Part shown: positions 1 through 20,528 of the stretch, piece by piece
Layout: each line of letters starts with the position of its first letter
Numbering within the stretch: the stretch's first letter is position 1
Origin: Kitasatospora sp. NBC_00374
Lineage (GTDB): Bacteria > Actinomycetota > Actinomycetes > Streptomycetales > Streptomycetaceae
DNA: 64,000 nucleotides
Assembly (NCBI RefSeq): GCF_041434935.1
Contig: NZ_CP107964.1
Span: forward strand, 6,865,001-6,929,000
Direction: 5' to 3'
Program-made: the position numbers and the translations under genes
Notes under the pieces: model-generated
Told to the model about the DNA's origin: nothing
Databases searched by the model: none
What the model saw: the letters and a program-made list of their open reading frames with translations, nothing else

Positions 1-3000
1 GTGCGGCGGTCAGTCGGCTGTGCAGCCTGGCCAGCAGCAGCGAGTTGCCGCCGAGGTCGTAGAAGTTGTCGTGGGCGCCGACCTCGGCCAGGCCGAGCAC
101 CTCCGACCACACCCCGGCGATCCGCTGCGCCAGACCCGCGCCCGGCGCGACCCAGGCCGCGGGAGCGGCCAGGTCATCCCGCCGGGGCCGGGGCAGCCGG
201 GCCTCGTCGACCTTGCCGTTGGGCTTCAGCGGCAGCGCGTCGAGCCACACCACGGCCTCGGGGAGCATGAAGGCGGGCAGCACGGACCGCAGCCGCCGGG
301 CCAGCTCCGCGGTGGACGGGCGCGGTTCGGCGTGCGCCACCAGATAGGCCGCCAGCGCGGGGGAGCGCCGCGGGTCCGCCCGGACCAGGGCCTGGGCGAC
401 CTCGGGCTGCGCCAGCAGGGCGGCCTCGATCTCGCCCGGCTCGATCCGGTAGCCGCGGATCTTCACCTGCCGGTCGGCGCGGCCGAGGTACTCCAGCGTC
501 CCGTCGGCCAGCCGCCGGCCGAGGTCGCCGGTGCGGTAGACCGTCCCGGCGCCGCCGTCCGGTCCGGCGGCGAACCGCTCGGCGGTGAGCTCGGGCCGGC
601 GCCAGTAGCCCGCGGCCACCAGGGCGCCGCCGAGGCAGATCTCGCCCACCACGCCGGCCGGGCAGCGCCGGCCCCCGGCATCCAGCACCAGGGCCTCGAC
701 GCCCGTGAGCGGGCGGCCCAGCCGGTTCAGCGGGCCCTCGCCGTCGAGTTCGTGGTGCAGCGCGAACACGGTGTTCTCGGTCGGGCCGTAGACGTTGCGC
801 ACCCGGTACGGGAGCCCGTCCGGCGGCCACTGGGTGAAGGCCGCTCCGCCCACGAGCAGGTGCCGCAGGTGACGGGGAGCGGGGGTGCCGGCACTCCACA
901 TCGCCTCGGCGAGCGGGGTCATCACCAGGCAGTGCGAGATCCGCCGTTCGTCCAGCCAGCCCGCAAGCCCGGGGACGACCATCGGGCCCTCCAGCGGTAC
1001 CAGGCAGGCTCCCGAACCGAGCGCCGACCAGATGTCCCACTGCGAGGCGTCGAAGCCGGGGCTGAGGACCTGGGCGATCCGGTCGCCCGGCCGCAGGTCG
1101 AAGGACTCGCGTCCCCACAGCACAAGTTGGCCGAGGCCGCCGTGGCGGACCGCCACCCCCTTGGGCTCGCCGGTGGTGCCGGAGGTGTGGATGACGTAGG
1201 CCGTGGAGCCGGGCGCCGGGACGCGCAGCGGCGGCACCGGGGCGGCCGGGTCCCCGGCTTCGTCCGCGGTGACGTCGAGGACCGCCCGGCCCGTACCGCC
1301 GAGCCGCTCGCGCAGTGACGGGTCGTCGGTCAGGACGGCGCAGGCGTCCAGGTCGTCCAGGACGAAGTCGACGCGGGCCGACGGGTGCCCCGGCTCGATC
1401 GGGCAGAACGCGGCCCCCGCCTGCCAGGAGGCCAGCATCGCGACGGGCAGGTCCGCGCCGCGTCCCAGCACCAGCGCGACCACCGGATCGGCGCCGCGCA
1501 GGTGCGGGCGGATCCGCTCGGCGAGCGCGGTGGCCCGCTGCGCCAGCCGGCGGTAGCTGGTCACGCCGCCGGCCGTCTCCACCGCGGGCGCGTCGGGGTG
1601 CTCCTCGCACCAGCGGGCCACCAGCTCGGGCACCGTGGTGGCGGGGGCCGCGGCCGGGCCGCGCTCGGCCTCGCGCAGGTCCGCGAGATCGGAGCCGACC
1701 AGGTCCAGCTCGCCGACCGGGACGTGCAGCCGATCGGGCAGCGTGCTCATCACGCGTCCGAGCAGCGTGGCGAACCGGGCCACGTCGGCCGGGCGGTAGC
1801 GGTCGCCGCGGTAGGTCAGCACCCCGCTCATCGCGCCGTGGCGAACGGTCAGGACCACCGTCAGACCGAGCTTGCCGAGGAAGCCCGCGCCCTGCCGGTC
1901 GAAGGCGAACGGGGTCAGCGGCCGGCCCGCGAGGGTGGGCGGCCGGCCCGGCGCCGTCTCCAGGCTCAACTGGACGTCGGCGAAGGGGGTCCGGCCCGGC
2001 CGGCGGACCGGGTTGAGCCGGTCGACGATGTCCTCGAAGGGCGCGCCGCGGTGCTCGAAGGCACCCAGCAGCTCGGTGCGCATCGCGTGCAGCAGGTCGA
2101 GCACGGTCGCGTCCTCGGCGGGACGCGAGCGCAGTGCCACGGTGTCCAGGCACGGGCCCAGCAGGTCGGCGAACTCCGGGTCGTCCCGGTGGGCGAGCGG
2201 CCCCGCGAACACCACGTCGTCCTGGCCCGTCCAGCGGTGCAGCAGGGCGGCCAGCGCGGTGGCGGCCGTCAGGTACGGGGTGAAGCCGTGCTCCTGCTGC
2301 AGCGGGCGCCAGCGCTCCAGCAGACCGTCGGCCAGCGGGATCGCCACGGCGCCGTTGGGCCCGCTCTCCCGGGGGGCGGGGAAGTCCAGGTAGGGCGGGG
2401 CCCCGGCCAGGTGGTCGGCCCAGTAGTCGAGGTCGGCCGCCCGGTCGGCACTGTCCCGCCGGGCCTCCTGGGCCGCGACGAAGTGCCGGTACTGGATCCG
2501 CCCGGCCGTGGCGTCCGCAGCGGGCAGTGGCAGGTCGGCAGCGGCCGCCGGCCGGGGCCGGACCGCCTCGCTGTCGGCAGGGGCCGGCAGCCCGAGGCCG
2601 TCCAGCGGCCGGTCCAGCAGCTCCGGCAGGCCGGCGAGCAGCCGGCCGAACGCCTCGGCCAGCGCGTGGACGTCCTCGGCCGCGAGCCGTTCTCCCCGGT
2701 AGGAGAACGCGCCGGAGAGCAGGCCGTCCTGCTCGGACAGGGTCACGGTCAGGGCGAACTTGGTCTCCCGCTCCCAGAAGGAGTCGAAGAACAGGGGGCT
2801 CAACTCGCTGCCGCCGAGCGCGGTTCGACGACCGTTCAGCAGGTTCATGTTGAGGGCGACGTCCGCGTAGGGCGTACGGCCCGGGCGGCGCTCGGGCTGC
2901 AGCCGCTCGACCAGCTCGTCGAACGGGGCACCGCGGTGCTCGAAGGCGTCCAGCACCTCGGTCCGCATCGCCTGCAACAGGTCTCGCACGGTGGCGTCCC

Positions 3001-19700: not shown

Positions 19701-20528
19701 GGTGAACCCGATCTTCTCGCCGCCGTCGTTGTTGATCGCCGAGCCCCGGATCACCGCGACGATCCGGTCCCCGTGCGCCAGCGCGTCCTCCAGCCGCTTG
19801 AGCACCACCACGCCGACGCCGCTGCTGCTCACCGTTCCGGTGGCGGCGGCGTCGAAGGCACGGCAGCGCCCGTCCTCGGCCAGGATGTTGCCGTCCTGGT
19901 GGAGGTAGCCCCCCGCCTCCGGCAGCCGGACCGTCACCCCGCCGGCCAGCGCGGTGTCGCACTCGTACCCGAGCAGCGCGCGGCAGGCCTGGTGCACGGC
20001 GACCAGCGAGGTCGAGCAGGCGGTCTGGACGGTGACCGCGGGCCCGCGCAGACCGAGCTTGTACGCGACCCGGGTGGCCAGGAAGTCCTTCTCGTACCCG
20101 ATGATCCGCATGGTGGCGCGGGCCGGGTCGGAGTCGGGGGAGCCGGGCGCCGCCGCGGTGTCGCAGCCCGCGTAGACGCCGATCCAGCCGTCGGTGCGGG
20201 CGGGGTCGGTGCCGGCGTCGTCCAGCGCCTGCGCCGCGCACTCCAGAAACACCCGCTGCTGAGGGTCGATCCCCTCGGCCTCGGCCGCGCTGTAGCCGAA
20301 GTGCTCCCAGTCGAAGCGGTCGCCGCCGGCGATCACGCCACGCGCCGGCACGTAGTCCGGGTGGTCGGCCAGGGCCGGATCCACCCCCGCCGCCAGCAGC
20401 TCGGCCCGGCCGAACCGGCTGATGCCGTCGGCGCCGGCCCGGAGGTTGCGCCAGAACTCGTCGACGTCCCCGGCGCCGGGGAGCCGGCAGGACATCCCAA
20501 TGATCGCGATCGCGTTTTCCTGATTCAT
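16701..20528 (-). CDS. Type I PKS module with thioesterase (KS-AT-ACP-TE)
   Basis: 1275 aa. KS has the full triad context (QTACSTSL near residue 173, EAHGTGT, KANIGHTGAASG). AT has FLFPGQG, GQSVGEYT (Ser near 613) and HAFH (near 707), which predicts malonyl-CoA. A Pro/Ala/Arg-rich linker leads to an ACP (YELGGSSLMIVG, Ser near 945) and a type I thioesterase (GGWSFGAMVAHE near 1096, late His in PGDHWSAL). No KR, DH, ER or methyltransferase is present, so it should add one malonyl unit, leave a beta-keto group, and release the chain. It is probably the last module although it is transcribed first. Start ATG 20528 has AGGGG upstream; no other start gives a KS-like N-terminus. Confidence 0.93.
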   Translation of the reverse strand: MNQENAIAIIGMSCRLPGAGDVDEFWRNLRAGADGISRFGRAELLAAGVDPALADHPDYVPARGVIAGGDRFDWEHFGYSAAEAEGIDPQQRVFLECAAQALDDAGTDPARTDGWIGVYAGCDTAAAPGSPDSDPARATMRIIGYEKDFLATRVAYKLGLRGPAVTVQTACSTSLVAVHQACRALLGYECDTALAGGVTVRLPEAGGYLHQDGNILAEDGRCRAFDAAATGTVSSSGVGVVVLKRLEDALAHGDRIVAVIRGSAINNDGGEKIGFTAPSVAGQRDVIELAMAQAGVGADEIGYVEAHGTGTRVGDPVELAALTAAYRAGTDRVGYCLIGAAKANIGHTGAASGVAGLIKTALMLQHREFVPTPHFERPNPELKLATTPFRVSTALSPWVSEGPRLAGVSSFGIGGTNAHVVLGEAPPTGPAPSGRDGAGPALLCLSASSPESLHTLREQLADRLGAPDAPALADTARTLAARRRFRHRVTVVADAPGPAARGLREAERVTHAEREPETAFLFPGQGALRAGHGRGAHAVLPVFRDVFEDCREQVRQRFGVELGAMLDPATPAAWFADTRHQQLGLFVLGYGLAQQLASWDVHPTALLGQSVGEYTAAAVAGVWSLPDALGLVWQRARAMHHAAPGRMLALRIGPDEAAALLDADVALAVAGGDHVVLSGPVRRITELAEAQRELGVQVRLLETEHAFHSPLMASSADALRRAVAATAHRAPRVPFVSNLTGGWAEHTSVGDPDYWAGQLLGTVRLADGLRTLADSGAKVLVELGPGDGLGRQAAGGALGAPARASAVALLGRDPGREDAAVLRGLGRLWERGVDVPWDELTPTGRGRLVSLPPHPMSGTRCRPAPGRDRTGDAGEESTGLQAAEPQATEPRSAGPRSFGTPSAPARTGQDGSGEARTERLAALWRAALGVDTALAGDDFYELGGSSLMIVGLLARVRAETGVQIPAAAVAAALTFRRLVELVGERAPGEAAPTTADTAAPRTPRPDRAAVPDVPGLTLLRDGGPRDPLFLLAPAGGSTLSYRHLAAAMDGTRPVYGIESPGLHDRRRTLYRLEQIAAHQVGVVRRARPNGPYLLGGWSFGAMVAHEMTRQLLDEGEEVRLLLAIDGYLPDTGGRPVATRPRWLGQALSFQAEALLKRGRSKLIGAGPGRGAGAQGGLNRIGDLAGAAGATDFVRVHNANLTAMLRHRPRPAPCDLVLFKAAADETRCAELARHLAPLYRGEVRVEPVPGDHWSALGPEHAATLAGRLRPYLEPLD

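Follow-up and report, generated by a model that had tools for sequence, protein, structure and literature searches.

Gene content of the locus

We analysed a window of 64,000 nucleotides of Kitasatospora sp. NBC_00374 (G000:C1:6865001-6929000; genome of 9.2 Mb in three contigs), the left part of which carries a biosynthetic gene cluster. Six minus-strand genes encode a polyketide synthase (PKS) module, a cytochrome P450, an AsnB-like amide synthetase, a free-standing adenylation (A) domain, an acyl-CoA-dehydrogenase-like flavoenzyme (ACAD), and a nonribosomal peptide synthetase (NRPS), all in one direction as the original prediction had stated, and together with a seventh gene, for a major facilitator superfamily (MFS) transporter, they form one operon-like block. 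The ACAD groups with EpxF of the epoxomicin pathway. From the sequence we predict, with a roughly even chance of being right, that the seven-gene block directs the synthesis of a short, linear peptide whose warhead is derived and not an epoxyketone, namely an alpha-unmethylated ketone end. The genes are as follows:

16701..20528, minus strand: PKS module with ketosynthase (KS), acyltransferase (AT), acyl carrier protein (ACP) and thioesterase (TE), by Pfam; the ATG at 20528, the predicted end of the cluster, was taken as its start
15207..16475, minus strand: cytochrome P450, by Pfam; heme and I-helix motifs recognised by eye
13329..15143, minus strand: AsnB-like amide synthetase, by Pfam; ATP loop intact, glutaminase residues lost
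11620..13269, minus strand: free-standing NRPS A domain with the code DFWNIGTVF, by Pfam
9769..11562, minus strand: EpxF-clade ACAD, by phmmer, phylogenetic tree and residue alignment
1..9772 and on to -196, minus strand: NRPS of 3322 amino acids, by Pfam and motifs
-302 to -1546, minus strand: MFS transporter, the seventh gene, after the NRPS, by Pfam

The frames were marked as coding by GC content per codon position, except that the A-domain frame escaped this filter and was found by translation. Most NCBIfam matches were below the curated cut-offs. Left of position 1, the NRPS frame extended about 200 bases beyond the window before the MFS gene followed, and its start overlapped the ACAD stop by 4 bases.

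Phylogenetic placement of the flavoenzyme

A phmmer search against the PDB identified EpxF (9GN5) as the best match to the ACAD (E 1e-169; next match 5e-24), with an identity of about 50-51%. A profile search yielded 30 matches at E <= 1e-100, distributed over 29 of 394 genomes of the family, our own included, and the matches near 1e-60 (next best 1e-68) represented a different, ordinary kind of ACAD; the named scan gave 37 ACAD loci. Five named loci duplicating rows from the numbered genomes were removed before construction of the tree (63 rows), while other duplicates stayed.

The tree contained a 13-row EpxF clade (support 97/93) that included the ACAD. Together with its orthologue in a second Kitasatospora genome (G428; 91% identity), the ACAD was sister to the proteins of G369 and G673 (99/98). 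Further members came from two Spongiactinospora, S. palmae, S. sparsogenes, S. milbemycinicus, Streptomyces sp. NBS 14/10, G721, and G561, and the fork joining EpxF to its nearest neighbours within the clade was weak (84/41). The matlystatin system was compared through the cluster of G785, which is mat-like by gene content, and its MatG-like protein lay outside the clade. This placement assigns the ACAD to the epoxyketone-synthase clade and not to the ordinary fatty-acid enzymes, and the epoxomicin-type kinship originally proposed is borne out here and in the lineage of the PKS described below.

Variation at the flavin site

According to PMC12624316, Arg273 of EpxF is required for decarboxylation and Ser406 for epoxidation, the S406A variant halting at the enone, and His183, Gly185, and Phe227 surround the flavin. 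The chain numbering of 9GN5 is offset by one. In the alignment, the catalytic Arg was kept in the ACAD as Arg283 (codon 10714-10716), and Gln191, Val193, Leu236, and Thr415 stood for EpxF His183, Gly185, Phe227, and Ser406, respectively.

Residues were counted over 67 rows, which were not deduplicated. Arg occupied position 273 in 50 rows and in all 13 of the EpxF clade. At position 406 we found Ala in 37 rows, Ser in 20, Gly in 5, Thr in 3, and Val in 2, with 10 Ser, 2 Thr, and 1 Ala within the clade. The other three positions were more uniform: Phe, Tyr, or His at 183 in 65 rows and Gln in 2; Val at 185 in 2; and Phe or Tyr at 227 in 64, Leu in 2, and Val in 1. Gln183, Val185, and Leu227 occurred in no rows other than those of our protein and of its orthologue in G428.

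The MatG-like protein of G785 carried Tyr183, Gly185, Phe227, and Ala406; Ala in an enzyme of the vinyl-ketone type is consistent with the result for the S406A mutant. Ser406 also occurred in members with quite different neighbourhoods (e.g. L079, L098, and L099), so that this residue alone is no proof of epoxidation. In a separate observation, EpxF-like ACADs lay beside P450-like genes at 15 loci (L075, L076, L077, L080, L082-L084, L089, L091-L093, L097-L099, and L101), and Arg273 was replaced in 12 of them (Gln in 9, Ala in 2, Met in 1), which makes a different reaction likely there.

Loss of the methyltransferase from the PKS module

The PKS consists of the following parts, assigned with Pfam except for the linker, which was located by alignment:

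19401-20516, minus strand: KS
18174-18971, minus strand: AT
17784..17948, minus strand, limits approximate: Ala/Pro/Thr-rich linker, replacing the C-methyltransferase of the relatives
17583-17777, minus strand: ACP
16746-17450, minus strand: TE

We constructed a KS-AT tree from 21 extracted rows and an AT motif table of 15 rows, leaving out L124, in which the KS motif was missing. The PKS and its G428 orthologue grouped with four modules bearing both methyltransferase and TE (Spongiactinospora rosea, S. milbemycinicus, S. palmae, and G721; 100/100), the order within this group being unresolved in the tree, and 13 matlystatin-type modules formed the other group (100/100). All four relatives carry the methyltransferase domain PF08242, which Pfam did not detect in our PKS, and all four have a fused TE. 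These data indicate that the domain was lost from a PKS of a methyltransferase-bearing lineage. Between this genome and G428, the ratio of nonsynonymous to synonymous substitution rates (dN/dS) of the linker was 1.26 (55 codons), compared with 0.14 for the KS, 0.26 for the AT, and 0.20 for the TE.

HAFH is an established mark of malonyl-specific ATs. Our AT showed the motifs GQSVGEY and HAFH, and all nine matlystatin-type ATs showed GHSLGA with AGHS, GGHS, or PAHS as the second motif; within the lineage the second motif was HAFH in Spongiactinospora rosea and G428, RAFH in two members, and LASH in G721. The AT is accordingly of the malonyl type as far as its motifs tell, in agreement with the two features originally noted, a malonyl-type AT and no C-methyltransferase.

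It had been concluded from these features that a separate methyltransferase would be needed. The loss of the domain is real, but methylmalonyl-CoA offers another route, as in matlystatin and probably threopeptin, though our AT belongs to a different lineage from that of matlystatin. The main rival to the reading of an alpha-unmethylated ketone, possible but on balance doubtful, is that the PKS uses methylmalonyl-CoA and the ACAD makes a vinyl ketone or a monosubstituted epoxyketone. Passages of PMC5719088 describe for matlystatin the ACAD MatG, a PKS without methyltransferase, a propionate-labelled C-terminus, a vinyl ketone, and the AsnB-like MatC, and passages of PMC11212132 point to a similar case in threopeptin. 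The sister ACADs of G369 and G673 are linked to methyltransferase-free PKSs of matlystatin type (KS-AT-ACP without TE), and HAFH is not strictly kept within our AT lineage. However, the matlystatin-type lineage of those two PKSs is not that of ours, and the flavin pocket is unlike both EpxF and the MatG-like protein.

The alternative of an ordinary epoxyketone, with a separate methyltransferase acting in trans on the beta-keto intermediate, is improbable. The EpxF-clade ACAD, the TE fused as in the lineage relatives, and a Thr-aliphatic peptide resembling epoxomicin are in its favour. No methyltransferase, however, was detected among the 7 cluster proteins, the 9 right-flank proteins (20.8-34.5 kb), and the 7 left-flank proteins scanned. 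The methyltransferase region of Spongiactinospora rosea, used as a query, gave no match anywhere in the genome of NBC_00374, although it was positive in three of three control genomes known to carry the domain; G428 gave one weak match (1e-4, 112 residues), and G369 and G673 gave none. The changes at Ser406 and at three more flavin positions also argue against an ordinary epoxyketone synthase.

NRPS organisation and adenylation codes

The NRPS showed five condensation (C) stretches, two A domains, and four thiolation (T) domains in Pfam, and we read its order from motifs and Pfam stretches as C-T-T-[C half]-C-A(Thr)-T-C-[C half]-A(aliphatic)-T without TE, a mosaic as had been described. The C-half arrangement is common to G369 and G673. 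Two near-identical T domains result from a 255-bp tandem duplication at 7602..8098 on the minus strand (1.9 copies, 99% matches), which is recent. In G428, contig C32 begins just past the first C domain of the NRPS.

The code positions and their substrate meaning are those that we take to apply to A domains in general. On this assumption, the first NRPS A domain reads Thr (DFWNIGMVH) and the second is aliphatic-like (DAWLLGVVF), both as predicted, and the free A domain is near-Thr (DFWNIGTVF). The Thr-aliphatic end corresponds to that of epoxomicin, in which the order is presumably Ile-Thr-Leu.

A glutaminase-less AsnB and its A-domain cassette

The closest solved relative of the AsnB-like enzyme was the hydroxyamidotransferase 7YLZ (E 3e-115; compare 2e-16 for 1JGT and 1e-9 for CarA, 1Q15). 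Matches at E <= 1e-130 were present in 51 of 70 genomes of the genus; only six genomes, our own included, had identities of at least 52%, and the others had 43-48%. The subgroup examined comprised seven rows, these six and G369.

Residue numbers follow what we take to be the numbering of E. coli AsnB. Cys1 is replaced with Ser in our enzyme (15138-15140), and all seven subgroup members have Ser for Cys1 and lack both the Arg49-region motif and the GE of the glutamine-binding loop, while Asp98 is still present in three. The ATP loop LSGGLDSS and the GExAD motif are kept in all seven. The glutaminase residues and LSGGLDSS were kept in all 13 canonical rows (11 paralogues from the genus, the MatC-like protein, and 7YLZ), from which three of 14 canonical loci (L163, L171, and L173) are absent because the start pattern missed them; the MatC-like protein reads GDGAD in place of GExAD. 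The subgroup is thus predicted to be devoid of glutaminase function. The AsnB fold with a disused glutaminase site is shared with beta-lactam synthetase and CarA, in which this site is out of use, although our enzyme is far closer to 7YLZ, keeps GExAD, and matches 1JGT only weakly.

In four of the seven subgroup members (our own, G428, G591, and G577) the free A domain adjoins AsnB, and in four (our own, G428, G369, and G561) an EpxF-clade ACAD lies near it. In G591 and G577, AsnB and the free A domain are accompanied by a C-T-C protein. This separate cassette (L176:12762-19504 and L178:16113 to about L179:2457) is found in two other Kitasatospora genomes, and a search of 36 kb around each copy gave no ACAD or PKS match. 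Because the cassette stands apart in this way, we assign AsnB and the A domain to the N-terminus: the AsnB, free A, and C-T unit is probably a cap cassette that was joined to an epoxyketone-type assembly line and builds the N-terminal cap. An action of AsnB on the beta-keto acid was also considered but became less likely, since in G591 and G577 the same AsnB accompanies A and C-T-C with no PKS alongside. The contexts of G561 and G559, which have neither A domain nor NRPS, conflict with a simple cap story; no NRPS or PKS match was found in 52 kb (G561) and 34 kb (G559) around AsnB. At these two loci (L154:4955-14917 and L180:11189-17910) genes for a P450-like protein and an AfsR-like regulator lie near AsnB, by Pfam in G561 and by weak similarity and by eye in G559; the former also has an EpxF-clade ACAD carrying Ala406, and the latter a type II TE.

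The AsnB-like enzyme had not been associated with epoxyketones in the original prediction, but it is not foreign to this chemistry: matlystatin has MatC, and the cluster of S. thermodiastaticus JCM 4840 has such an enzyme too. It could instead make a hydroxamate, as in matlystatin, actinonin, and trichostatin, so that the product would be a hydroxamate metalloproteinase inhibitor, an explanation that we consider slightly less probable still than an ordinary epoxyketone. It would fit the relationship to 7YLZ and the pairing of AsnB with this type of ACAD in matlystatin. An AsnB-type transferase uses glutamyl hydroxamate in benzohydroxamate formation (passages of PMC13418202), but the residues by which glutamine or glutamyl hydroxamate would give up its amine are missing here. 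Moreover, neither the cluster proteins nor the flank proteins scanned included an AurF-type N-oxygenase or a mutase, whereas the mat-like G785 has AurF, a mutase, and a zinc-binding dehydrogenase that we read as CCR. A hydroxamate or matlystatin pathway was rejected as the main interpretation, because neither the PKS lineage nor the state of the AsnB glutaminase residues agrees with it, and neither does the result for AurF and mutase.

Conservation and borders of the cluster

We compared five genes with those of G428. The dN/dS values were 0.22 for ACAD, 0.22 for AsnB, 0.15 for P450, 0.29 for PKS, and 0.33 for the free A domain, and these genes are under purifying selection. Constraint also persists in what was once the glutaminase domain of AsnB (0.16). 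The block from PKS to ACAD is the same in G428 (P450 orthologue 95% identical), where the cluster lies on contigs C32 and C9, the latter with the MFS gene and the 3' part of the NRPS, and gene order is conserved. The lost methyltransferase, truncated C halves, duplicated T domain, and odd residues might suggest a dead, decaying remnant. This explanation is very improbable: the dN/dS values are low throughout and only the linker is near 1, gene order is kept across the two contigs, and the C-half arrangement recurs in G369 and G673.

Synteny with G428 suggests the right border of the cluster. Adjoining the PKS, a gene for a PAS-GAF-SpoIIE phosphatase with an HATPase domain lies at window positions 20795-23218; it was unmatched in the G428 stretches beside the cluster (best E 0.68). 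The left flank (-11512 to -1613) encodes an Hsp70-like protein with a double zinc ribbon, a 1400-aa TPR protein, an adjacent kinase-like gene, and a small protein without Pfam match that appeared J-like by eye.

Comparison with described pathways

The cluster shares with the epoxyketone pathways (epoxomicin epx, eponemycin epn, and TMC-86A tmc) the EpxF-clade flavoenzyme, the Thr-aliphatic end, and one PKS module with fused TE, whose KS-AT falls in the lineage of putative epoxyketone clusters. It differs in the lost C-methyltransferase, the changes at Ser406 and three flavin positions, and the added glutaminase-less AsnB and free A domain. Eponemycin and TMC-86A proceed through an alpha-dimethyl beta-keto acid, with P450 hydroxylation later (passages of PMC9943649), and a C-methyltransferase is not universal in epoxyketone clusters, the macyranone module being described without one (passages of PMC11212132).

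With matlystatin (MatG, MatO, and MatC) the cluster shares an AsnB-like enzyme, an EpxF-type ACAD, a methyltransferase-free PKS, and a free A domain, but PKS and AT are of another lineage, MatC retains the glutaminase residues, and MatG has Ala406 in place of Thr. The matlystatin hydroxamate genes (AurF, mutase, and CCR) were not among the scanned cluster and flank proteins. The cluster of S. thermodiastaticus JCM 4840 (L065 = G369) has the sister ACAD, the same NRPS architecture, the Thr code, the MFS gene, and a glutaminase-less AsnB beside the ACAD; in contrast, its PKS is a matlystatin-type KS-AT-ACP without TE, Ser406 is kept, and no relative of the free A domain was found in that genome at E<=1e-130. 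The threopeptin cluster (sna), as described in passages of PMC11212132, likewise combines an NRPS, a single methyltransferase-free PKS module, and an ACAD, but has a PEARL enzyme in place of AsnB, and its SnaO seems to halt at the enone. In the related G673 cluster, a prephenate dehydrogenase and an A-T-TE protein nearby (L104:1328-6369) suggest a supply of modified tyrosine.

This gene combination was not described among the listed matches from the open-access PMC literature, and no full-cluster match to a described pathway was found there. As the cluster deviates from the epoxyketone systems in Ser406 and methyltransferase and from matlystatin in PKS lineage, we filed it in neither group. 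The original interpretation is partly supported. The cluster is real and conserved, and it is predicted to work like the epoxyketone pathways up to the beta-keto acid.

Predicted pathway and product

The best reading, which we hold to be about equally likely to prove right or wrong, is an N-terminally capped peptide, X-Thr-aliphatic, that terminates in an alpha-unmethylated ketone. In this pathway, the free A domain would load residue X onto the first T domain, and the glutaminase-free AsnB-like enzyme would assist in constructing or amidating the cap at the N-terminus. Thr and then the aliphatic residue would be appended by the NRPS, the single PKS module would add one malonyl unit, and the fused TE would release a beta-keto acid without alpha-methyl groups, which the flavoenzyme would bind and decarboxylate via its conserved Arg. 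The resulting CH2 enolate would have no beta-hydrogen on that side, so that the known desaturation-epoxidation could give neither enone nor epoxide. Instead, oxygenation of the enolate would yield a hydroxymethyl ketone, or its protonation a methyl ketone; alternatively, the ketone would be desaturated towards the amino acid. Of the first two we slightly favour the hydroxymethyl ketone, because CO2 can be lost spontaneously and a dedicated enzyme maintained by selection would be superfluous for that step alone. An altered reaction would agree with the altered flavin pocket that this genome and G428 share. A hydroxymethyl ketone was named in none of the open-access PMC matches listed. The P450 is a candidate for hydroxylation of the cap or of one of the residues. 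Substrates, step order, product, and the roles of P450 and AsnB are those that we infer from domains and residues.

Several points weigh against this assignment. The changes at the flavin site count as one evolutionary event because the orthologue pair is two genomes, and since EpxF contacts the flavin partly through its backbone, side-chain changes may matter less. Thr at position 406 retains a hydroxyl and might still support epoxidation. It also occurs in L087, whose PKS is of matlystatin type, which ruled out Thr406 alone as a marker of the malonyl, methyltransferase-free case. AT specificity is read from motifs, which are not strict in the lineage, as LASH in G721 (with methyltransferase) and the two RAFH show, and the threopeptin AT, predicted as malonyl-type, likely uses methylmalonyl (passages of PMC11212132). 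An unrelated trans-methyltransferase may be encoded elsewhere in the genome. A plain methyl ketone may need no decarboxylating enzyme, as beta-keto acids lose CO2 unaided, and the oxygenating route needs an outside electron donor, none of which was seen in the cluster.

The genome holds two proteasome-family genes only (G000:C1:6930076-6931368, 1-2.4 kb right of the window), which we take to be one beta and one alpha subunit. Dedicated proteasome self-resistance was rejected, there being no extra copy, and a proteasome target accordingly gains no support; that these genes lie about 45 kb from the PKS could be a coincidence.

Implications for the EpxF family

The epoxyketone family inspired carfilzomib, and in 2025 the structure of EpxF was solved and its key residues were assigned (passages of PMC12624316); the cluster is a natural experiment in which some of these residues have been varied. 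The Arg that binds the substrate is retained, the four flavin-site changes coincide with the disappearance of the methyltransferase responsible for the usual substrate, and the outcome is maintained by selection, which makes testable what decides the outcome (enone, epoxide, or other) of the decarboxylase-dehydrogenase-monooxygenase cascade. More speculatively, and rather unlikely in full, the locus could hold two new activities: an EpxF descendant with a remodelled flavin site that converts an unmethylated peptidyl beta-keto acid to a new electrophilic end (a hydroxymethyl ketone, or a dehydroamino ketone through desaturation on the amino-acid side), and a portable AsnB/A/C-T cassette for the N-cap, in which the glutaminase-less AsnB links a carboxylate with an amine other than glutamine. 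The glutaminase-less AsnB cassette would represent a second amide-forming activity, separately testable, in several actinomycete genomes.

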